From positions 1 to 64,000 of the IMG/VR virus record IMGVR_UViG_3300035661_000043: a DNA stretch of 64,000 nt. The stretch is one strand, 5' to 3'. The DNA is from a virus. The notes under the pieces are model-generated. The model ran no database searches and was not told where the DNA came from. It saw nothing but the letters and a program-made list of their open reading frames with translations. This document shows, piece after piece, positions 10,536 through 57,609 of the stretch (position 1 is its first letter; each line of letters begins with the position of its first letter). The position numbers and the translations under genes were made by a program.

Positions 10536-10676
10536 TTTGAACATATAGGATATTGCAATACGAATCGTATCAAGATTCATTATATTTGGGAAAAAGATTT
10601 TCATGAGAATAAAGAAGCAACAATAGAATTATGCAAAAATTATCTGATTCAGTATAGAGAAAATTTACAGAAGTAA
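10536..10676 (+). pseudogene. Homing-endonuclease C-terminal remnant between terminase fragments
   Basis: The open frame after a TGA contains KIHYIWEKDFHENKEATI and ends at TAA. This looks like the C-terminal strand-helix of Vsr/EDxHD-like homing endonucleases. It has no start or catalytic half and overlaps the start of the next terminase fragment. It is read as the trace of the element that split the gene. Confidence 0.45.
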
Positions 10677-11389
10677 TAGATGTAGATTTCTTAGAGGTAG
10701 AAACAGATTCTGGATATCAACCAGTGTCATCTGTTAATACCACTGAGATCTATGAGATCTATGAGATCTATTTCGAATCTGGAAATATGATTCAATGTGC
10801 AGATAATCATATATTCATTGCAACAGATGGCGGTGAAATTTTTGCTAAAGATTAGATTGGAATGTGTCTTCTTACTAAGAATGGGACAGATAAAGTAATA
10901 AAAGTCATTGCAACTGGTGTATTTGAAGAAATGTATGATCTATCTGTAGATTAGGAAGATCATACGTATTATACAAATGGTATATTAAGTCATAATTCGA
11001 CCATTATGGCTGCAATTATGTGTCATTATATTATCTTCAATGATAGTAAGACATGTGCTATTCTTGCTAACAAAGCAGCTACTGCAAGGGAAATCTTATC
11101 TCGTGTTCAATTAGCTTATGAACACTTACCTAAATGGTTACAGCACGGAGTAATTGAGTGGAATAAAGGGTCTTTTTTACTTGAAAATGGATCTAGAGTT
11201 CTTGCTGCATCTACTTCATCCAGTGCAATTCGGGGATTTTCTTGTGTTTAGGGAGACACAAAAATAACACTAAGAAACAAAAAAACTGGTGAAATCAAAG
11301 AAATAGAAATCAATAAGCTACCATAGATGATGAATGAAAATGCAAATTCATCTAAGGAGCCAAATGATATTACAATTCGATTTCAATGA
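10631..11389 (+). CDS. 17: Terminase gp17, fragment 2: intein C-part, ATPase middle, second intein N-part
   Basis: Starts MQKLSDSV and carries about 122 intein residues ending in TNGILSHN. The next residue, Ser, restores the P-loop GK|ST of the ATPase. The extein continues through ASTSSSAIRGFS (T4 ASSSSAVRGNS). There a second intein begins, with TAG in its block A (CV-TAG-GDTKI, Ser), and stops at TGA after about 48 residues. A short in-frame tandem of 9 bp encodes EIYEIYEIY inside the first intein. It must be trans-spliced at both ends to give terminase. Confidence 0.85.
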
Positions 11390-11497
11390 ACTAATGAAAA
11401 TACAGGGTCTACAAGAACATAAAAGAAACTATACAATGTTTCTCAACTGAAGCTCCGGATAAAATATAGCCATTGAATAAGAAAACAAAAGATTTAC

Positions 11498-12844
11498 ATG
11501 CTACAAAATAATCAATCGCTGATAGATAATGATGAATGGGAAGTTCTTACTCCATCTGGGTGGCAAGACTTTTCTGGTATACTGATAACAGAAAATCAAG
11601 ATACCATCACTTTAGACTCAGGATTAACTTGCACAGAAAATCACAAAGTATTGAGAGCCGGAGTGTGGGTAGAAGCAAAATAGATAAATCACACAAAGAA
11701 TGTTAATCAAACCGTGTATGACTTAACTGATGTGACGAATGGTCATGCATATTATACAAACTCGGATATTAGTCATAATTGCAATTTCCTAGCACTGGAT
11801 GAATTTGCATTTATTCACCCCAATGTAGCAGAAGATTTCTTCGCATCTGTTTATCCTACTATTTCATCAGGTAAAACTTCAAAATTGATGATCATTAGTA
11901 CACCTAATGGTATGAATTTGTTCTATAAGATGTGGATGGATGCACTATCTGGGTCAAATGGTTTCATGCCTGTAAAGGCGATTTGGTCTGATATTCCTTC
12001 TAGAGATCAAAAATGGGCAGATGAACAGAAAGCAGTTCTGGGAGAAGTTAAGTTCTAGCAAGAATGTGAGTGTAACTTTATTGGTGCTAGCAATACACTT
12101 ATTTCTGGCAATAAACTGAGAACTATCCCATTTGAAAAGCCAATTGCTATATCACCAACTCTTCGTGTGTACGATGAACCCAAGCCCGGAAATTCATATG
12201 TAATGAATGTGGACACTGCAAGAGGGACAGGTAATGATTATTCTTCATTTACTATTATCAATGTCACATAGTTGCCATATAAAGTTGACGCTGTATATGC
12301 AGACAATGAAGTTAGCCCACTGCTTTTCCCAGGTATTATATTGAATCTGGCTAGAAAATACATTAATGCATCAGTATTAATAGAAACCAATGATATTGGA
12401 GAAAGTATAGCATCTTCTCTGTATTATGATTATGAATATGAAGAAGTTATTATGTCAGACAGCAAAGGTGGAATGTAGGCATTTGGTGGAGAGAAACCAG
12501 GGCTGAGAACTACTAAAAAGACAAAATCAGTAGGATGTTCTGTCCTCAAGACATTGATTGAAAATGATCAATTAATCATTCGCGACTCCGAGATTCTATA
12601 TGAGTTATCAAATTTTGCTCTAAAGGGATCATCATACGAGGCGGAGAACGGACATGATGATAGAGTAATGACACTCGTTCTTTTTGCATACCTTACTACT
12701 CAGAGTGTTATGACCGAATTGACAAGTTAGTAGGCAAAAGCAAGAATTATTGAACTGAGACAGAAACAAACAGAAGATGCAATGATGCCGGCAGGATTCT
12801 TTTCTGATGGGACAGAATCTGAATCAGATACATTTCATTTCTAA
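11498..12844 (+). CDS. 17: Terminase gp17, fragment 3: second intein C-part plus nuclease half
   Basis: The first about 94 residues are the second intein's C-part, ending in TNSDISHN, followed by extein Cys and the Walker B region LALDEFAF. Then come IISTPNGMN (T4 TTPNG), the nuclease strand VDTARGTGNDYS, DNEVSPLLFP and the C-terminal TTKKTKSVGCS block. Several TAG codons are read as Ser. The split leaves 108 nt between fragments 2 and 3 without a gene. Together fragments 1-3 encode the packaging ATPase/nuclease. Confidence 0.87.
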
Positions 12845-15739: not shown

Positions 15740-17902
15740 ATGTCTAATCCAATATTCAATTTTTTCGGGTTCTAGATCAAACGATCTGAAGAGGAGAAAC
15801 AGCTTCCTAAATCAGTTGTTGCTCCAAATCTAGCAGATGGTTCTATTGTTATTAATCAGAACTTGGGAACTGGTATTCTCGGAGACTCTTATACTCTTGC
15901 ATTTGACCCAGACGGTCAGATCACAAATGAGATCGATCTCGTTCGTAGATATAGAGAATTGTGCAGATATCCAGAAGTAGCAGAAGCTATTGAAGATATC
16001 GTTAACGAAGCAGTGATTATCGAAGGTGAAGATAAACCTGTTGAAATCAATCTTGAGTATCTTAAGATCTCAGATTCAATCAAGAAAAAGATCACAGAAG
16101 AATTTGCCAAGATTCTTTCACTGATGAACTTCAATGAAGAAGGGTATGATCTATTTGAAAGATGGTATGTGGATGGGAAGATCTTTTTCCATATATTACT
16201 GGATGAAAATCATTCAAATGGTATCAAAGAGCTAAGATTAATTGACCCACGTAAGATCAAGAAGATCAAGAATGTGATCAAAGAGAAATTAGCAAGTGGT
16301 GTAGAGATTGTCAGGGAAGTACAAGAATATTACATATACAATGACAAGGGTATTGCAGGCGGCACTAGTCAGGGTGTAAGATTAAGTGTTGATTCTGTTG
16401 TGTACTGCCATTCAGGTCTGATTGATTCACAAACTGGATTAGTTCAATCATATTTGCATAAAGCAATCAAACCTGCTAACCAATTAAAAATGTTGGAAGA
16501 AGCGGTTATTATCTACAGATATACTCGTGCACCAGAGCGTAGGGTATTCTATATTGATGTTGGAAATTTACCAAAAGGTAAAGCTGAGCAATACGTCAGT
16601 GATATGATGAATAAGTTCAAGAACAAGTTATCATATGATGCTGTTACTGGGGAATTGGCAGATTCTAAGAGACACTTGTGTTTGGATATGAGCACACAAG
16701 TACCATTGCTTGATGGCAGAACACTGTCTATTTCCGAGATTGCTGCAGAGATGGATCAATCAGATAAACCTCTATGGGCATATTCATGTGATCCAGTGAC
16801 TGGCAAATTTGTGCCGGGTAAAATTACCTGGGCCGGTGTATCTAGACCAAATGCACAAGTCATGCGTATTACTCTTGATAATGGAAAAACCATTACTTGC
16901 ACCCCAGATCACAAATTTCCAGTTTGGGACAAGGGATTCGTAAAAGCTGAAGATCTATATATTGGCGAATCAATGATCCCGCATTATACTCGTTGGAAGG
17001 AAATTGCTAAGGGTTCTTCCAAGAATTACGAACAAATTTTCGAGAATGATACTGGAGAATGGAAATTCACACATCAAGCAGTATCCGATTGGAAAGATTG
17101 TATTACATCGCGCCGTTCATCTACATCATGTGTTTCTTCTGATAACAGTGCAGATAGACAAATTGATTCTCTAATGTTCCGTAACCATAAAATTGCAAAA
17201 ATTGAGTGGTTAGAAGAAACAATGGACACTGGATGTCTGACTATTGACGGAGATGAAGAATTCCACAATTATCATACATTCGCTCTATCTGCCGGAATTT
17301 ACACCCAGAACTAGATGATGGAAGATTTCTGGATGCCTAGGCGCGGAGATAAATCAACAGAAATCACGACACTTCCAGGGGGTCAGGGTCTCGGTCAGTT
17401 GGATGATTTGGATTATTTCAAGGATAAACTATATCGTTCTTTAAATGTACCTAAATCTAGATTCGTTCCAGATAGTGGTTTCTCTATTGGTAGATCAGAT
17501 ACTATTTCTAGGGATGAAGTAAAATTTGCTAAATTTGTTGGCAAATTGCGCAACAAATTCGGAAATATCTTTTTAGATATATTGCGCGTTCAATTGATTT
17601 CTAAGGGTATTTTCTCTAGTAAAGATTGGGAACAATTTAAAGAGAAGATTAAAGTCATTTACGCTAAAGATAACTTCTTTGCCGAATTAAAAGAAAATGA
17701 AGTTCTTACTACTAGACTTTAGACTGCATTGCAATTGGATCCATTTGTCGGCAAATATGTAAGCAAAGAATACATCCAAAGAAAAGTACTAAGATTCACA
17801 GATGATGAAATAAAAGAAATAAATACACAAATGGAAGCCGAGATCAAATCTGGTGATATTACTGACCCAGTAGCAATGATGCAAGAACCACCTCAGGCAT
17901 AA
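15740..17902 (+). CDS. 20: Portal protein gp20 with in-frame intein
   Basis: 720 codons, of which 211 are an intein. Extein landmarks of T4-like portals: FFGFSIKRSEEE (TAG as Ser), RRYRELCRYPEVAEAIEDIV, RWYVDGKIFFHI, ELRLIDPRKIKKIK, PERRVFYIDVGNLPKGKAEQ, then MMEDFWMPRR, TTLPGG and LNVPKSR. Removing the intein gives RHL-Ser-MMEDFW, matching the HMSM(L)EDFW of relatives; the Ser is TAG 17312-17314. The portal is the dodecameric vertex through which DNA is packaged. Confidence 0.92.
16679..17311 (+). other. Portal intein (contiguous, 211 aa)
   Basis: Begins with Cys (CLDMSTQVPLLDG, block A) after RHL. It has a block-B-like TCTPDHKFPVW and ends FHNYHTFALSAGIYTQN, with the terminal Asn preceded by Gln instead of the usual His. 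The +1 extein residue is the TAG codon. No LAGLIDADG or HNH nuclease motif is evident in the central part, so it is probably a mini-intein. Splicing requires Cys/Ser/Thr at +1, which holds if TAG is serine. Confidence 0.88.
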
Positions 17903-37082: not shown

Positions 37083-37667
37083 ATGTATTTGTATGACTTA
37101 GAGACACTTGGTGTAAATGAAACAGCTGTAGTACTTTCTATAGGTTGCATTTATATCAGTTCACCAGAACCGTGTTCATATCATGATTTGATGAAGAATT
37201 CTTTCTTCGTGAAATTGGATGCTAAACATCAAATCCAAAAACTGGGTCGACAAGTTACTTCCTCTACCGTAGATTGGTGGGCAAAACAAAGCACCGCTGC
37301 TAAGCATACATCATATATCCCAAGTAAGAATGATGTGACACCTGACGTGGCGCTTCAGCAACTACGGAAGTTTGTCTATGACAACACCGGGCAATCTCGA
37401 GTCAAGTGCTATACTCGTGGATCCATGGATGTTATTGTTTCAGAGCATTTGGCTAAGCAAGTCGACATGAAACTTCCTTGGGTGTATAATAACTTCAGAG
37501 ATATTCGTACTGCTATCGATATTCTATACACACTCAGTAAAGATGGGTATGTGGCAGTAGACCAGACAAAATGCTTTGGTTACACAGATGACATGACTAT
37601 TGCGCACAACCCAGTGCACGACTGTGCTCGCGATGCTGCAATGCTACTTTTTGGAAAGACTGAATGA
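37083..37667 (+). CDS. dexA: 3'-5' exonuclease DexA
   Basis: 194 residues. DEDDh-type exonuclease: YDLETLG (DxE), STVDWWAKQS, RDIRTAIDIL and HNPVHDCARDA (HxxxxxD) match T4 DexA (STIEWWKNQS, RDIRTRIEAL, HDSIHDCAKD). Likely degrades host DNA and trims ends. The stop overlaps the polymerase ATG. Confidence 0.88.
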   Translation: MYLYDLETLGVNETAVVLSIGCIYISSPEPCSYHDLMKNSFFVKLDAKHQIQKLGRQVTSSTVDWWAKQSTAAKHTSYIPSKNDVTPDVALQQLRKFVYDNTGQSRVKCYTRGSMDVIVSEHLAKQVDMKLPWVYNNFRDIRTAIDILYTLSKDGYVAVDQTKCFGYTDDMTIAHNPVHDCARDAAMLLFGKTE

Positions 37668-39169
37668 CAAGATTTTATACAAACGTAGTAAGACTCGGGA
37701 ACAATATCTGTGTCCGAGAGCAAACAGAAACTGGACCTAGCAAGTTTAAAACTCGTTACCAGCCAACATTATTTCTAAAGACCGACAAGGAGTCAAAGTT
37801 TAAGACTCTGTACGGAGATTTTGCTAAACCCGTGCAACAAGACTCGATGTCAGAAGCACGAGAGTTCATCAAGAAATATGAAGGTGTACGTGGGGTAGAA
37901 TTGTTCGGTCAGCATAACTGGGTTCTTCAGTACATTAATGAGACATATTCTGGATCAGTTAACTTTGACCCAAAACTGATTTCTGCTTGGTCTTTAGATA
38001 TAGAAACGCTATTGTTTGAAGATGCAGAAGGAAAGATTACTGGCTTCCCGAATGCAGAGACAGGTGATTGTGAAATCACTCTTATCACAATTCAATGTCT
38101 GCAGAGCAAACAGTGCTTCACATTTGGCTCACGCGAGTATAAAGGTGAAAAAGTTCTTGATAGCAGGTACATGAACTGTGGATCTGAAAGGGAAATGCTT
38201 AAGCAGTTCATACAATTTTGGCAACTCAAATCAGTAGAAGTGATCACTGGATGGAACATCGAGCGGTTTGATATTCCGTACATTGTGAATCGTGTAAAAG
38301 TAGTTCTCGGAGAAGAATGGGCCAAGAAGTTATCACCGTGGGAATCAGTTGAAGTTATTAAGAAACGTGTCTCCGGTGGGTTTGGTGGAGATGAAGAAAT
38401 CATCTGTAATATTGCTGGTGTGTCTATTCTAGACTATATGGCTCTGTACAAGAAATTTGTGTTTGTAAAACATGAATCTTACTCGTTAGGGCATATTGCA
38501 CAGGAAGAACTTGGTGAGACCAAATTGGACCACTCGGAGTATAAGAACTTCAATGAGTTCTACTGGAAGGGGTTTGATGCAAAGTATGTTGACTATAACA
38601 TCCGAGATACGCAACTTGTTGCTCGTCTTGAAGATAAATTGAAACTTATTGAGTTAGTCTATACTCTGGCATATTTGGCAAAAATCAACTTTACAGATGT
38701 TTTCAGTCCTGTAAAGATGTGGGATTCTATTCTCCACAACAGGCTGTTTGGTGAAAATACGGTTGTGCCACTGAAGGAACACAATCCTGATGGTGACAAG
38801 CACATCGAAGGTGCTTATGTAAAGGACCCATCAGTTGGTATGCATGAATGGGTTATCTCATTAGATGCTACAAGCTTGTATCCATCCATCATGATGACAC
38901 TGAATATCAGCCCAGAAACATATCGAGGTATTGACAAAGAATACAATGTTGATTCTTTGTTGGCTGGGAAAATGAAGTTGGATCCACCTCAAAATCAAGC
39001 ATGGGGACCGAATGGTTCCAAGTTTGAAATTACTACACGCGGTGTTATCCCAAAGATTGTAGAAGAAATGATGGCAGATAGGAAATCTTCTAAAAAGAAA
39101 ATGCTTAATAGGACTCAGGATCTGGAACACATCAAGACAGAAATCACCAGGCGTGGATTGAAAGTGTAA
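37664..39169 (+). CDS. 43: DNA polymerase gp43, fragment 1 (N-terminal, exonuclease, palm start)
   Basis: 501 residues, no TAG. Family B polymerase: exonuclease motif WSLDIETL, GWNIERFDIPYI, YNIRDTQLVARL; palm motif A as SLDATSLYPSIMM. It stops at TAA after ITRRGLKV, in the fingers region. The rest continues in the gene at 39340. The 170-nt gap holds no gene or intron core that I recognise. Fission here recalls the split gp43A/B of some Aeromonas phages. Confidence 0.92.
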   Translation: MTRFYTNVVRLGNNICVREQTETGPSKFKTRYQPTLFLKTDKESKFKTLYGDFAKPVQQDSMSEAREFIKKYEGVRGVELFGQHNWVLQYINETYSGSVNFDPKLISAWSLDIETLLFEDAEGKITGFPNAETGDCEITLITIQCLQSKQCFTFGSREYKGEKVLDSRYMNCGSEREMLKQFIQFWQLKSVEVITGWNIERFDIPYIVNRVKVVLGEEWAKKLSPWESVEVIKKRVSGGFGGDEEIICNIAGVSILDYMALYKKFVFVKHESYSLGHIAQEELGETKLDHSEYKNFNEFYWKGFDAKYVDYNIRDTQLVARLEDKLKLIELVYTLAYLAKINFTDVFSPVKMWDSILHNRLFGENTVVPLKEHNPDGDKHIEGAYVKDPSVGMHEWVISLDATSLYPSIMMTLNISPETYRGIDKEYNVDSLLAGKMKLDPPQNQAWGPNGSKFEITTRGVIPKIVEEMMADRKSSKKKMLNRTQDLEHIKTEITRRGLKV

Positions 39170-39339
39170 GATCAAAAAGTTTCCGACTATTGATTTAGCT
39201 GGGACTTTTGTATATTACCAAATACACGTTCACTTTTCTTCATTCCCACAAACGGGAAGTAATTTTTCTTCGATATCAACAATTTTCAACCTTTACTATA
39301 TCACCATATAGTATATTTTATTAGAACAGGACCTCATAT

Positions 39340-39984
39340 ATGGATCTTTCTAAACTTTCCGATTCCGAATTGTTAAAACTCTACAATAAAGCAGAAGAGG
39401 AAATCTCCGCTCTTGATAACTTACAAATGGCACTCAAGATCTCTTTAAATTCACTTTACGGTGGAATTGGAAATCAAGGGTTCCGTTTCTTCAACTCTAA
39501 TGTTGCAGAGACAATTACATTGACCGGTCAGTATGTTCTTCGGTCTATTGAGCAAAGCATCGATGATAAACTGAATAAAGTATTCAAGACAGAGGGTCAC
39601 AAGTACCTGATCTATATCGACACTGATTCTGTCGTCGGAGATACAAAAATTTTAGTTAACGGCACTGAAACAACAATTGCAGATTATTATGATTCTAAGA
39701 CGGAGTTCATCAAAAGAGATGAATTTAATAAAGACTATGTTAAAAAATGTGATTCAGATTACACACCTACTGTGAATCCAAATACACAGGTAATGGAAAA
39801 TAAATCTGTTTCATATGTTATGAAACATAGAGTAAAAAAGAGAATGTATAAAATTACTGTTGGTGGAAAAGAAGTAATTTGTACGAATGATCACTCAATT
39901 ATTGTACGCAGGAATAGTCTCATTCTTTCCGTTATTCCCTCAGACATTCTGAAGACTGATGAGTTAATACATATTAAGCACTGA
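39340..39984 (+). CDS. 43: DNA polymerase gp43, fragment 2 with split-intein N-part
   Basis: Own ATG with AGGACC upstream. MDLSKLSDSELLKLYNKAEE, then ALKISLNSLYGGIGN (motif B) and YIDTD. From the next Ser an intein begins: SVVGDTKILVNGT (block A), KITVGGKEVICTNDHSIIV (block B), and it ends at TGA after about 115 intein residues. The catalytic motif C (YIDTDS) is interrupted between D and S. Trans-splicing with the 40044 gene is needed. Confidence 0.9.
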   Translation: MDLSKLSDSELLKLYNKAEEEISALDNLQMALKISLNSLYGGIGNQGFRFFNSNVAETITLTGQYVLRSIEQSIDDKLNKVFKTEGHKYLIYIDTDSVVGDTKILVNGTETTIADYYDSKTEFIKRDEFNKDYVKKCDSDYTPTVNPNTQVMENKSVSYVMKHRVKKRMYKITVGGKEVICTNDHSIIVRRNSLILSVIPSDILKTDELIHIKH

Positions 39985-40043
39985 ATTTGTATGAACTAAT
40001 ACATGACTAAAGATCGTGATTTAATTATAGAAAGATTAAAAAA

Positions 40044-40997
40044 ATGCAATTAGAGTTCACAACTGATTTTCAGATTGAAGATTTAGGTGAGATCGAAGAA
40101 GATGTTTATGATATTGAAACAGAAGATAATCATAATTTTTTCGGCAACGGTGTTTTAGTACACAACAGTTGTTACATCAATGTCGCCCCAGTTGTACAGA
40201 AATATCTATCAGATATTCCCGATAAGTCTGAGATTATTAAACGATTAGAAAAATTGGCAGTTGATATTATTCAAAAGAATGTCAATGATATTGTGAATGA
40301 TGTCTGTAAGCAAATGAATGTCTACGAGAACAAACTATCATTTAAATTAGAGGTATGTGCAGATAAGGCAATCTGGTTAGCAAAGAAAAAATATGTAGTA
40401 CGTGCATATTCTTCTGAGGGTGTTACATACTCAAAACCAAAATATAAAACGATTGGTTTGGAACTCGTCCGTTCGTCTACTCCAATGTTTATCCGTAAGA
40501 AGTTGAAGGATGTTCTCCCATTGGTGTTTGACACAGATCAAAGCACAATTCAGAAATTTTTATTAGAAACTCGTAAAGAGTTTGATCAATTGTCGGTGCA
40601 AGAAATTGCATTTCCAAGATCTGCTAACAATTTAGAGGAATATTCCGATAGTCAAAATATCTACAAAAAGGGTGCTGGTGTGTCTACACCAATACATGCC
40701 CGCGCAAGTTTGTTGTATAATGATCTAATACGGAAGAAAAATCTTCAAGGGCAGTTTCCAATTATTGTTTCTGGTGCGAAGATCAAATTTGTGTATCTAA
40801 AACTACCAAATACTCTAAGAGAGAATGTCATTGCTTTCCCTGCTGATGAGACTCTTCCTATTGAATTTGACCTACACCAGAAGGTTGACAGAGATATTCA
40901 ATGGGACAAAACGATGATTGCTTCTACACAGATCATTCTAGATTCAATTGGTTGGTCAGCTATCGAACAGTCAAGTTTAGATGACTTTTTTGGTTAA
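40044..40997 (+). CDS. 43: DNA polymerase gp43, fragment 3 with split-intein C-part
   Basis: The first 41 residues are a classical split-intein C-part, ending EEDVYDIETEDNHNFFGNG then VLVHN; the next residue, Ser, restores TDS-CYINV. The polymerase thumb follows, and the C-terminus ends SSLDDFFG, a clamp-binding peptide like the T4 gp43 tail. Only 59 nt separate it from fragment 2. No endonuclease gene lies between them. Confidence 0.9.
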   Translation: MQLEFTTDFQIEDLGEIEEDVYDIETEDNHNFFGNGVLVHNSCYINVAPVVQKYLSDIPDKSEIIKRLEKLAVDIIQKNVNDIVNDVCKQMNVYENKLSFKLEVCADKAIWLAKKKYVVRAYSSEGVTYSKPKYKTIGLELVRSSTPMFIRKKLKDVLPLVFDTDQSTIQKFLLETRKEFDQLSVQEIAFPRSANNLEEYSDSQNIYKKGAGVSTPIHARASLLYNDLIRKKNLQGQFPIIVSGAKIKFVYLKLPNTLRENVIAFPADETLPIEFDLHQKVDRDIQWDKTMIASTQIILDSIGWSAIEQSSLDDFFG

Positions 40998-50035: not shown

Positions 50036-50111
50036 GGGACTATAGTTTAATGGTTAAAACATCACCCCTTTAAGGTGTAAGCTCTCGGTTCGAATCCGAG
50101 TAGTCCTACCA
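50036..50111 (+). tRNA. tRNA-Lys(UUU)
   Basis: Acceptor GGGACTA/TAGTCCT, A73, CCA; anticodon stem CACC/GGTG with loop CCTTTAA (C33); canonical T-arm. Confidence 0.8.
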
Positions 50112-53041: not shown

Positions 53042-53112
53042 ATTTTCAATAGGAAGTATGAGGATCATTACCTCGTAATAGGTGTAACTATACTTTGTAT
53101 TTCCACCGTAGA

Positions 53113-53205
53113 CTTGGTGTCCCGGAACTGCGCGCGCCGGAAGACGGTTCGATTCCGTCGTTAAAAGGTTTATGTTAGGTTCGATTCCTAACCGGTGGCC
53201 TACTT
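53113..53205 (+). other. Fused or class II tRNA-like element with two T-arms
   Basis: Closing CCACCG/CGGTGG, and two perfect T-arms (GACGG-TTCGATT-CCGTC and TTAGG-TTCGATT-CCTAA). No clear anticodon arm. It looks like two tRNA 3' parts joined. Confidence 0.4.
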
Positions 53206-53224
53206 ATTATGTGCGATATCTCTA

Positions 53225-53672
53225 TCGCACATCAGAATGACTGTATGGATCTTCGGATCTGTGAAGTTGAAAGAAATGTGTTCAGGAAGCGAGTTCGAGT
53301 CTCGCCAGCTCCACCAGAAGTATATCATCTGATGCATTCTGTGTGCTGTATATATTGCAAGTATTCAGTATACTTCTGATGGGGCTGTATTGGTTTCGAC
53401 TGGGCAATGAGTATGGAGATGGACAGTTTGGCAACGCAGAAGCCATTATGATTGGGTCTTCCCGGTTGAAGAAGCAAACAAAAGTAAAAGCAAACGCTGA
53501 TACATTCCTGATGGCGGCTTGATCGCCCAGTGAGGATTCCTTGGGTGTTCCTTATTACCAAAACACCCATCCTAATATACGGAGAGTGGACCTGCAGGGT
53601 GCAGGCGCTGTTTGCTAAACAGTTGGTGTCAGGAATGGCATTCCGGTCGGGACGGACTCTCTCCTCCAAAAT
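53225..53672 (+). ncRNA. ssrA: Circularly permuted tmRNA
   Basis: The acceptor piece comes first: T-arm GCGAG-TTCGAGT-CTCGC, then CAGCTCC-A-CCA ending at 53316. After a 64-nt spacer with its own 9-bp stem, the coding piece begins at 53381 with GGGGCTG, which pairs with CAGCTCC, followed by TATTGGTTTCGAC. The tag frame starts at GCA 53490 and reads ANADTFLMAA, stop TGA. This is the two-piece layout of alpha-, some beta-proteobacteria and cyanobacteria. Outer limits are approximate. Confidence 0.85.
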
Positions 53673-53721
53673 TCTTTCTAAGAGCTGATCCCTCTTAGTT
53701 AGACAGGAGTTATAACTCCTG

Positions 53722-54632: not shown

Positions 54633-54896
54633 GCAAATTTAGCTCAATGGTTAGAGCAGCGGACTCATGAAAAATTGTGCACCTAGGTAGGGATGCTTAG
54701 TGTGAATGTTGTCAAATTCGAAGAAACCTAAGTCAGAAATGATATGGTAACCTCGAGCCAAGCCTGAGAAATTAGGTGCTGTGTAGAGACTAGACGGCAA
54801 CCATCTAGAACAGATGAAGGTATAGTCCAGGGAGTGGCGAAAGTCACACAAACCAGAATCCGTTGGTTACAGGTTCGAGTCCTGTAATTTGCACCA
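54633..54896 (+). tRNA. tRNA-Ile2(CAU) interrupted by a group I intron
   Basis: Exons 54633-54668 and 54857-54896. Spliced, the tRNA is flawless: acceptor GCAAATT/AATTTGC, anticodon stem GCGGA/TCCGT, loop CTCATAA, T-arm ACAGG-TTCGAGT-CCTGT, ACCA. The 5' exon ends in U and the intron ends in G, as group I splicing demands. The insertion site (CAU|AA) equals that of the Azoarcus tRNA-Ile(CAU) intron, so Ile2 (lysidine-modified) is more likely than Met. Confidence 0.9.
54669..54856 (+). ncRNA. Group I intron, IC3, Azoarcus-like (188 nt)
   Basis: Core elements in order: GTCAAATTCGAAGAAACC (P3/J3-4/P4), TAACCTCGAGCCAAGCCTGA (P6-P5'), GTGTAGAGACTAGACGGC (P8/P3'/P7), GATGAAGGTATAGTCC (P7'), then GGGAGTGGCGAAAGTCAC (P9 with GAAA loop) and ACAAACCAG. 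I recall nearly the same strings in the Azoarcus ribozyme. No endonuclease inside. Confidence 0.9.
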
Positions 54897-57519: not shown

Positions 57520-57609
57520 GGAAGTTTGGCAGAGTGGTTTATTGCCGCGGACTCTAAATCCGCTGAATCAGAGATGGTTCCACGAGTTCGAATCTCGTAA
57601 CTTCCTCCA
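57520..57609 (+). tRNA. Amber-decoding tRNA-Ser(CUA)
   Basis: Class II tRNA, 90 nt. Acceptor GGAAGTT/AACTTCC perfect, U73, CCA. Ser-type D-arm (TTGGCAGAGTGGTTTATTGC); anticodon stem GCGGA/TCCGC, loop CTCTAAA with anticodon CTA at 57554-57556; variable arm GAATC-AGAGAT-GGTTC; T-arm ACGAG-TTCGAAT-CTCGT. E. coli tRNA-Ser(UGA) has the same GGAAGT start and D-arm style. This tRNA explains the serine reading of TAG in the window. Confidence 0.92.

Follow-up and report, generated by a model that had tools for sequence, protein, structure and literature searches.

A predicted circularly permuted, two-piece tmRNA in the tRNA array of a T4-like phage that recodes TAG

Two-piece tmRNAs encoded by circularly permuted genes have been described in bacteria and in phages. 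In the bacterial chromosomal gene of Caulobacter, whose function has been shown, the acceptor piece comes first and an intervening sequence lies between CCA and GGGG (Keiler et al., 2000, cited in PMC3985003). Among phages, a two-piece tmRNA has been published for Methylophilales phage Melnitz, together with counts of 53 two-piece forms in 133 phage tmRNA structures and 17 permuted tmRNAs in 47 Melnitz-like contigs (PMC9004378), and the current database lists 79 tmRNA sequences from phages, counting every form (PMC11915505). Phage permuted tmRNAs are already documented, and the gene described here is one more case. It shares with the Caulobacter gene the permuted order and the position of the intervening sequence but is phage-borne, and its function is predicted. 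It lies in the window, the 64,000-nucleotide stretch of DNA analysed here, which belongs to a 79.8-kb virus contig. The phage is placed by its genes as a T4-like relative of pelagimyophages and Melnitz; among cultured phages, its major head protein comes closest to those of Pelagibacter phage HTVC008M (61.4% identity) and Melnitz (58.6%), and a permuted ssrA is likewise carried by Melnitz and related pelagimyophages. Unlike that of Melnitz, however, the gene belongs to a TAG-recoded phage, where it is part of a large tRNA array, and encodes the tag ANADTFLMAA. Melnitz also has a glutamine riboswitch, whereas the scan of the window gave no match to a riboswitch family. Our literature search, which was incomplete, found no report of a permuted tmRNA in a phage recoding TAG as serine.

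A permuted tmRNA with the tag ANADTFLMAA was called by ARAGORN at 53224-53613, and cmscan matched 53257-53522 to Rfam family RF04321 (tmRNA_permuted) over model positions 1-213 of 213 with 94.7 bits (E 4.6e-17), which is about twice the gathering score of 47 bits. ARAGORN made zero tmRNA calls in 6.4 Mb of order-1 Markov sequence modelled on the dinucleotide statistics of the window. The earlier note on this DNA had recognized a phage-encoded, circularly permuted tmRNA with this tag from the letters alone and had proposed a check against the Rfam models for two-piece tmRNAs; the RF04321 score and the ARAGORN call bear it out. The alignment to beta_tmRNA (RF01850) extends end to end from 53217 to 53575, including the 3' hairpin, but scores 57.8 bits against a cut-off of 84, so the gene is not assigned to the beta_tmRNA subtype. 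The ARAGORN end at 53613 was rejected because it overlaps a tRNA-Ser starting at 53581. Of the range 53225-53672 first attributed to the tmRNA, the part up to about 53578 stands, while the remainder is a separate tRNA gene. The features and the evidence for each are as follows:

53224..53578, + strand: permuted tmRNA (ssrA) gene, approximate extent of the precursor (ARAGORN; RF04321; extent of RF01850)
53257..53316, + strand: acceptor piece, with a P2 strand, the T-arm, the acceptor 3' strand CAGCTCC, discriminator A and an encoded CCA (RF04321; alignment; direct reading)
53317..53380, + strand: intervening sequence of 64 nt, with a helix, GAAGTATA / TATACTTC, predicted to prolong the acceptor stem in the precursor (covariation; pair counts; fold)
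53381..53578, + strand: coding piece, with the acceptor 5' strand GGGGCTG, D-loop TGGTTTCGAC, P2 strand TGGGCA, tag region and 3' hairpin (RF04321; RF01850; alignment)
53490..53522, + strand: tag frame ANADTFLMAA, with resume codon GCA, read as GCA...GCT TGA (ARAGORN; direct reading)
53543..53568, + strand: 3' hairpin of the coding piece, GGGTGT..TCCTTATTACCAAA..ACACCC (covariation; aligned to the beta_tmRNA model)
53581..53668, + strand: tRNA-Ser(GCT), a separate gene outside the tmRNA (ARAGORN on 53560-53700 alone)
57520..57609, + strand: amber suppressor tRNA (anticodon CUA), long variable arm, another member of the tRNA array (ARAGORN)

In the acceptor piece, the T-arm (GCGAG TTCGAGT CTCGC, 53289-53305) is followed by CAGCTCC (53306-53312), which with ACCA occupies 53306-53316 and lies ahead of GGGGCTG (53381-53387). 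The acceptor piece precedes the coding piece and the two strands form a 7-bp acceptor stem, both as the earlier note had stated: all seven positions pair, with U70 opposite G3. The G3·U70 pair is the alanine identity pair, and an acceptor stem with it is present in all 92 distinct genes compared. The tag frame is open, begins with an Ala resume codon and ends in a hydrophobic residue followed by Ala-Ala. We put the probability that the gene is an intact-looking, circularly permuted two-piece tmRNA of the ordinary trans-translation type at about 0.9.

Direct reading of 53490-53522 confirms a tag frame that ends MAA-TGA. Homologous tags are ANDEQFLMAA, ANDERFLMAA, ANDNAFLMAA, ANESSFLMAA and ANDEVFLMAA, and ANADTFLMAA differs at positions 3-5 from the usual AND- start. 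A search of GTDB genomes for the LMAA-tag pattern gave five matches, and none of the four searched with RF04321 (Paenibacillus L205 was left out) scored over the cut-off. The stop of the tag is TGA, which the earlier note had called consistent with TAG recoding. It carries no weight in this respect, because TGA terminates 18 of the 41 genes in the window and the stop is other than TAG in 106 of 110 other phage tags (TAA 100, TGA 6 and TAG 4, with the window and its duplicate, L001, excluded from the count). One of the phage permuted tmRNAs (L041, 1392-1484 region; tag ANDEVFLMAA) stops at TAG, and its record appears to use the standard code, with a portal and an SbcC free of internal stops.

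That the phage recodes TAG, the premise from which the earlier note started, is upheld by the genes themselves. There are 89 in-frame TAG codons in 27 of the 41 genes, with no in-frame TAA or TGA, and the genes stop at TAA (23) or TGA (18). The length-weighted ORF length is 870 bp with TAG as a stop and 1152 bp with TAG opened, and no such gain comes from opening TGA or TAA. The array includes the CUA tRNA, whose discriminator base is U. The amino acid inserted at TAG is probably serine rather than glutamine, given that Ser is best across 23 homologous columns (log-likelihood -39.3 versus -43.7 for Gln), that the TAG column of the tail sheath is Ser in all eight homologs, that the variable arm of the CUA tRNA is long and that a TAG occupies the +1 position of a portal intein (see below). 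An additional recoding of TAA, suggested by an ARAGORN call of 'tRNA-Stop(tta)' at 50036-50111, was rejected: the stem TCACC/GGTGT leaves a 7-nt loop, CCTTTAA, that sets TTT as the anticodon, and TAA terminates 23 of 41 genes. It is more likely that this element is a tRNA-Lys(UUU) in which position 33 is C.

The portal gene (15740-17902) contains an intein at about 16682-17311 (PF14890, 39.2 bits) that is missing from the portals of relatives. The +1 extein residue, after ...YTQN, is encoded by an in-frame TAG (17312-17314), and the corresponding column is Ser in one homolog. Intein splicing requires Ser, Thr or Cys at +1, so the phage would need amber recoding to make its portal; this arrangement may outweigh the tmRNA in worth. 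The genes of the terminase large subunit (two ORFs, 10631-12844) and DNA polymerase (three ORFs, 37664-40997) are fragmented, and partial matches to intein-splicing domains in the fragments 10631-11389 and 39190-39984 suggest split inteins.

The strongest alternative to an ordinary trans-translation RNA is that the tmRNA has been retained or shaped by amber recoding, where it would clear ribosomes that reach mRNA 3' ends after UAG readthrough or that stall at UAG. The earlier note had argued similarly that competition with the host RF1 and stalling would make a rescue RNA of its own logical for such a phage. Readthrough caused by suppressors is known to be handled by tmRNA (Ueda et al., 2002, cited in PMC3985003), and in the window the CUA tRNA and the tmRNA share one array. 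At two other loci (L110, 11222-12746, and L112, 4402-5399) a permuted tmRNA and a CUA tRNA lie within about 1.2 kb of each other, the latter being the sole tRNA of the fetched stretch. At L112, the region of the tRNA matches Lak phage DNA, and the terminase has no internal stop. With the window these make three cases, which are few and serve as a lead only; that phage tmRNAs and amber-suppressor tRNAs form a recurrent functional pair, in which the tmRNA would clear ribosomes sent past UAG by the suppressor tRNA, is a doubtful proposal. In recoded Escherichia coli, moreover, tmRNA impairs UAG-containing viruses (PMC6207430), which disfavours the simple logic that recoding needs tmRNA.

The distribution of the gene also counts against a tie to recoding. 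By a coding-density test, which is crude on short loci and gave no clear call for L037, L072 and L086, the window is the only one clearly recoded among about 117 permuted-tmRNA loci. The records of L007, L041 and L070, whose tags end in LMAA, have portal and SbcC genes free of stops; where testable, the nearest tmRNA relatives thus appear to use the standard code. Carrying a permuted tmRNA is not specific to phages that reassign stop codons, and the argument that recoding explains the rescue RNA is not supported, the same type of gene being common in phages showing no recoding. Since the nearest testable relatives are standard-code and permuted tmRNAs do not track recoding, the tmRNA gene is most likely older than TAG recoding, and we consider it unlikely that recoding has retained or shaped it.

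It is still less probable that the gene is a decaying, host-derived passenger, or a decoy competing with the host tmRNA, rather than an active rescue RNA. Its 94.7 bits fall below the scores of five LMAA relatives (112-154 bits), the start of its tag, ANAD-, is unusual, and the tmRNA of phage DS6A, which lacks a CDS, inhibits the host tmRNA in E. coli (PMC11915505); the tag frame absent from DS6A is, however, present here. Against decay, identity to every other phage copy found is at most 65%, yet no structural element is broken, from the acceptor stem, T-arm and P2a to the encoded CCA, the open tag frame and the 3' hairpin. In an alignment with 10 phage relatives, 24 of the 46 predicted consensus pairs show compensatory changes, counted where at least one sequence has both sides changed with pairing kept. 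These include acceptor pair 5, the intervening-sequence helix, four of the five T-arm pairs and seven of the eight pairs of the 3' hairpin, while none of the seven P2a pairs is broken in 10 sequences. The intervening helix keeps 9.1 of its 10 pairs across 92 genes, compared with a mean of 6.9 and a maximum of 7.2 after 3' sides were swapped between genes, so its pairing is maintained as well; the full fold of the part comprising the acceptor and the intervening sequence is only 1.95 sd below shuffles. The helix thus covaries; the intervening sequence is predicted to be excised by processing, and the mature RNA pieces are predicted to end near the 3' hairpin (53543-53568).

Although tmRNA genes are common integration sites (restated in PMC11915505), it is extremely improbable that the gene comes from bacterial DNA wrongly joined to phage sequence or is what remains of a prophage attachment site, because it is whole rather than a mere 3' fragment, lies within the tRNA array of the phage and is flanked on either side by T4-like genes in one virus record, has its closest copies in other phage contigs, and is accompanied by no integrase among the 30 proteins scanned with PHROGs. 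The T4-like genes are those for portal, major head protein, sheath, terminase, DNA polymerase, UvsX and SbcCD, and the tRNA array, which contains the tmRNA and the CUA tRNA, spans 49.5-57.6 kb. Two scans found about 120 IMG/VR stretches with the same permuted architecture, among which the tmRNA of the window clusters with L007, L025, L003 and L060 (support 0.98); in cultured phages, close DNA relatives were limited to fragments covering 13-14% of the query. Two further elements were observed in the array, a group I intron at 54657-54849 (RF00028, 66.4 bits) and, just upstream of the tmRNA at 53104-53200, a tRNA-like element with successive T-loop motifs, ggttcgattccgtc and ggttcgattcctaacc, in a single CCACCG/CGGTGG stem, as if a tRNA were nested inside another tRNA.

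For the preferred reading, an ordinary two-piece tmRNA, we propose that the permuted gene would be transcribed together with the phage tRNA array and that host tRNA-processing enzymes would excise the 64-nt intervening hairpin. This would yield two pieces, the acceptor piece with CCA at its 3' end and the coding piece with GGGGCTG at its 5' end, and pairing in the acceptor stem and in P2 would keep them together. Charging by host AlaRS would go through G3·U70, and with host SmpB the RNA would enter stalled ribosomes, where Ala-ANADTFLMAA would be added before release at UGA. The SmpB is assumed to be that of the host because SmpB (PF01668) was not found in the 79.8-kb record, which is possibly incomplete, nor was it found in four relatives; no release factor genes were found in the record. 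Judging from the anatomy and from the Caulobacter relative, processing, charging by AlaRS, SmpB binding and ordinary trans-translation are most likely. The likely benefit to the phage would be that ribosomes are kept free during infection.

Because permuted tmRNAs in phages do not follow recoding, an appealing inference that had no support can be set aside. The gene is a divergent, structurally intact two-piece tmRNA in a code-changing phage, and this single genome could test whether tmRNA and stop-codon recoding interact at all.
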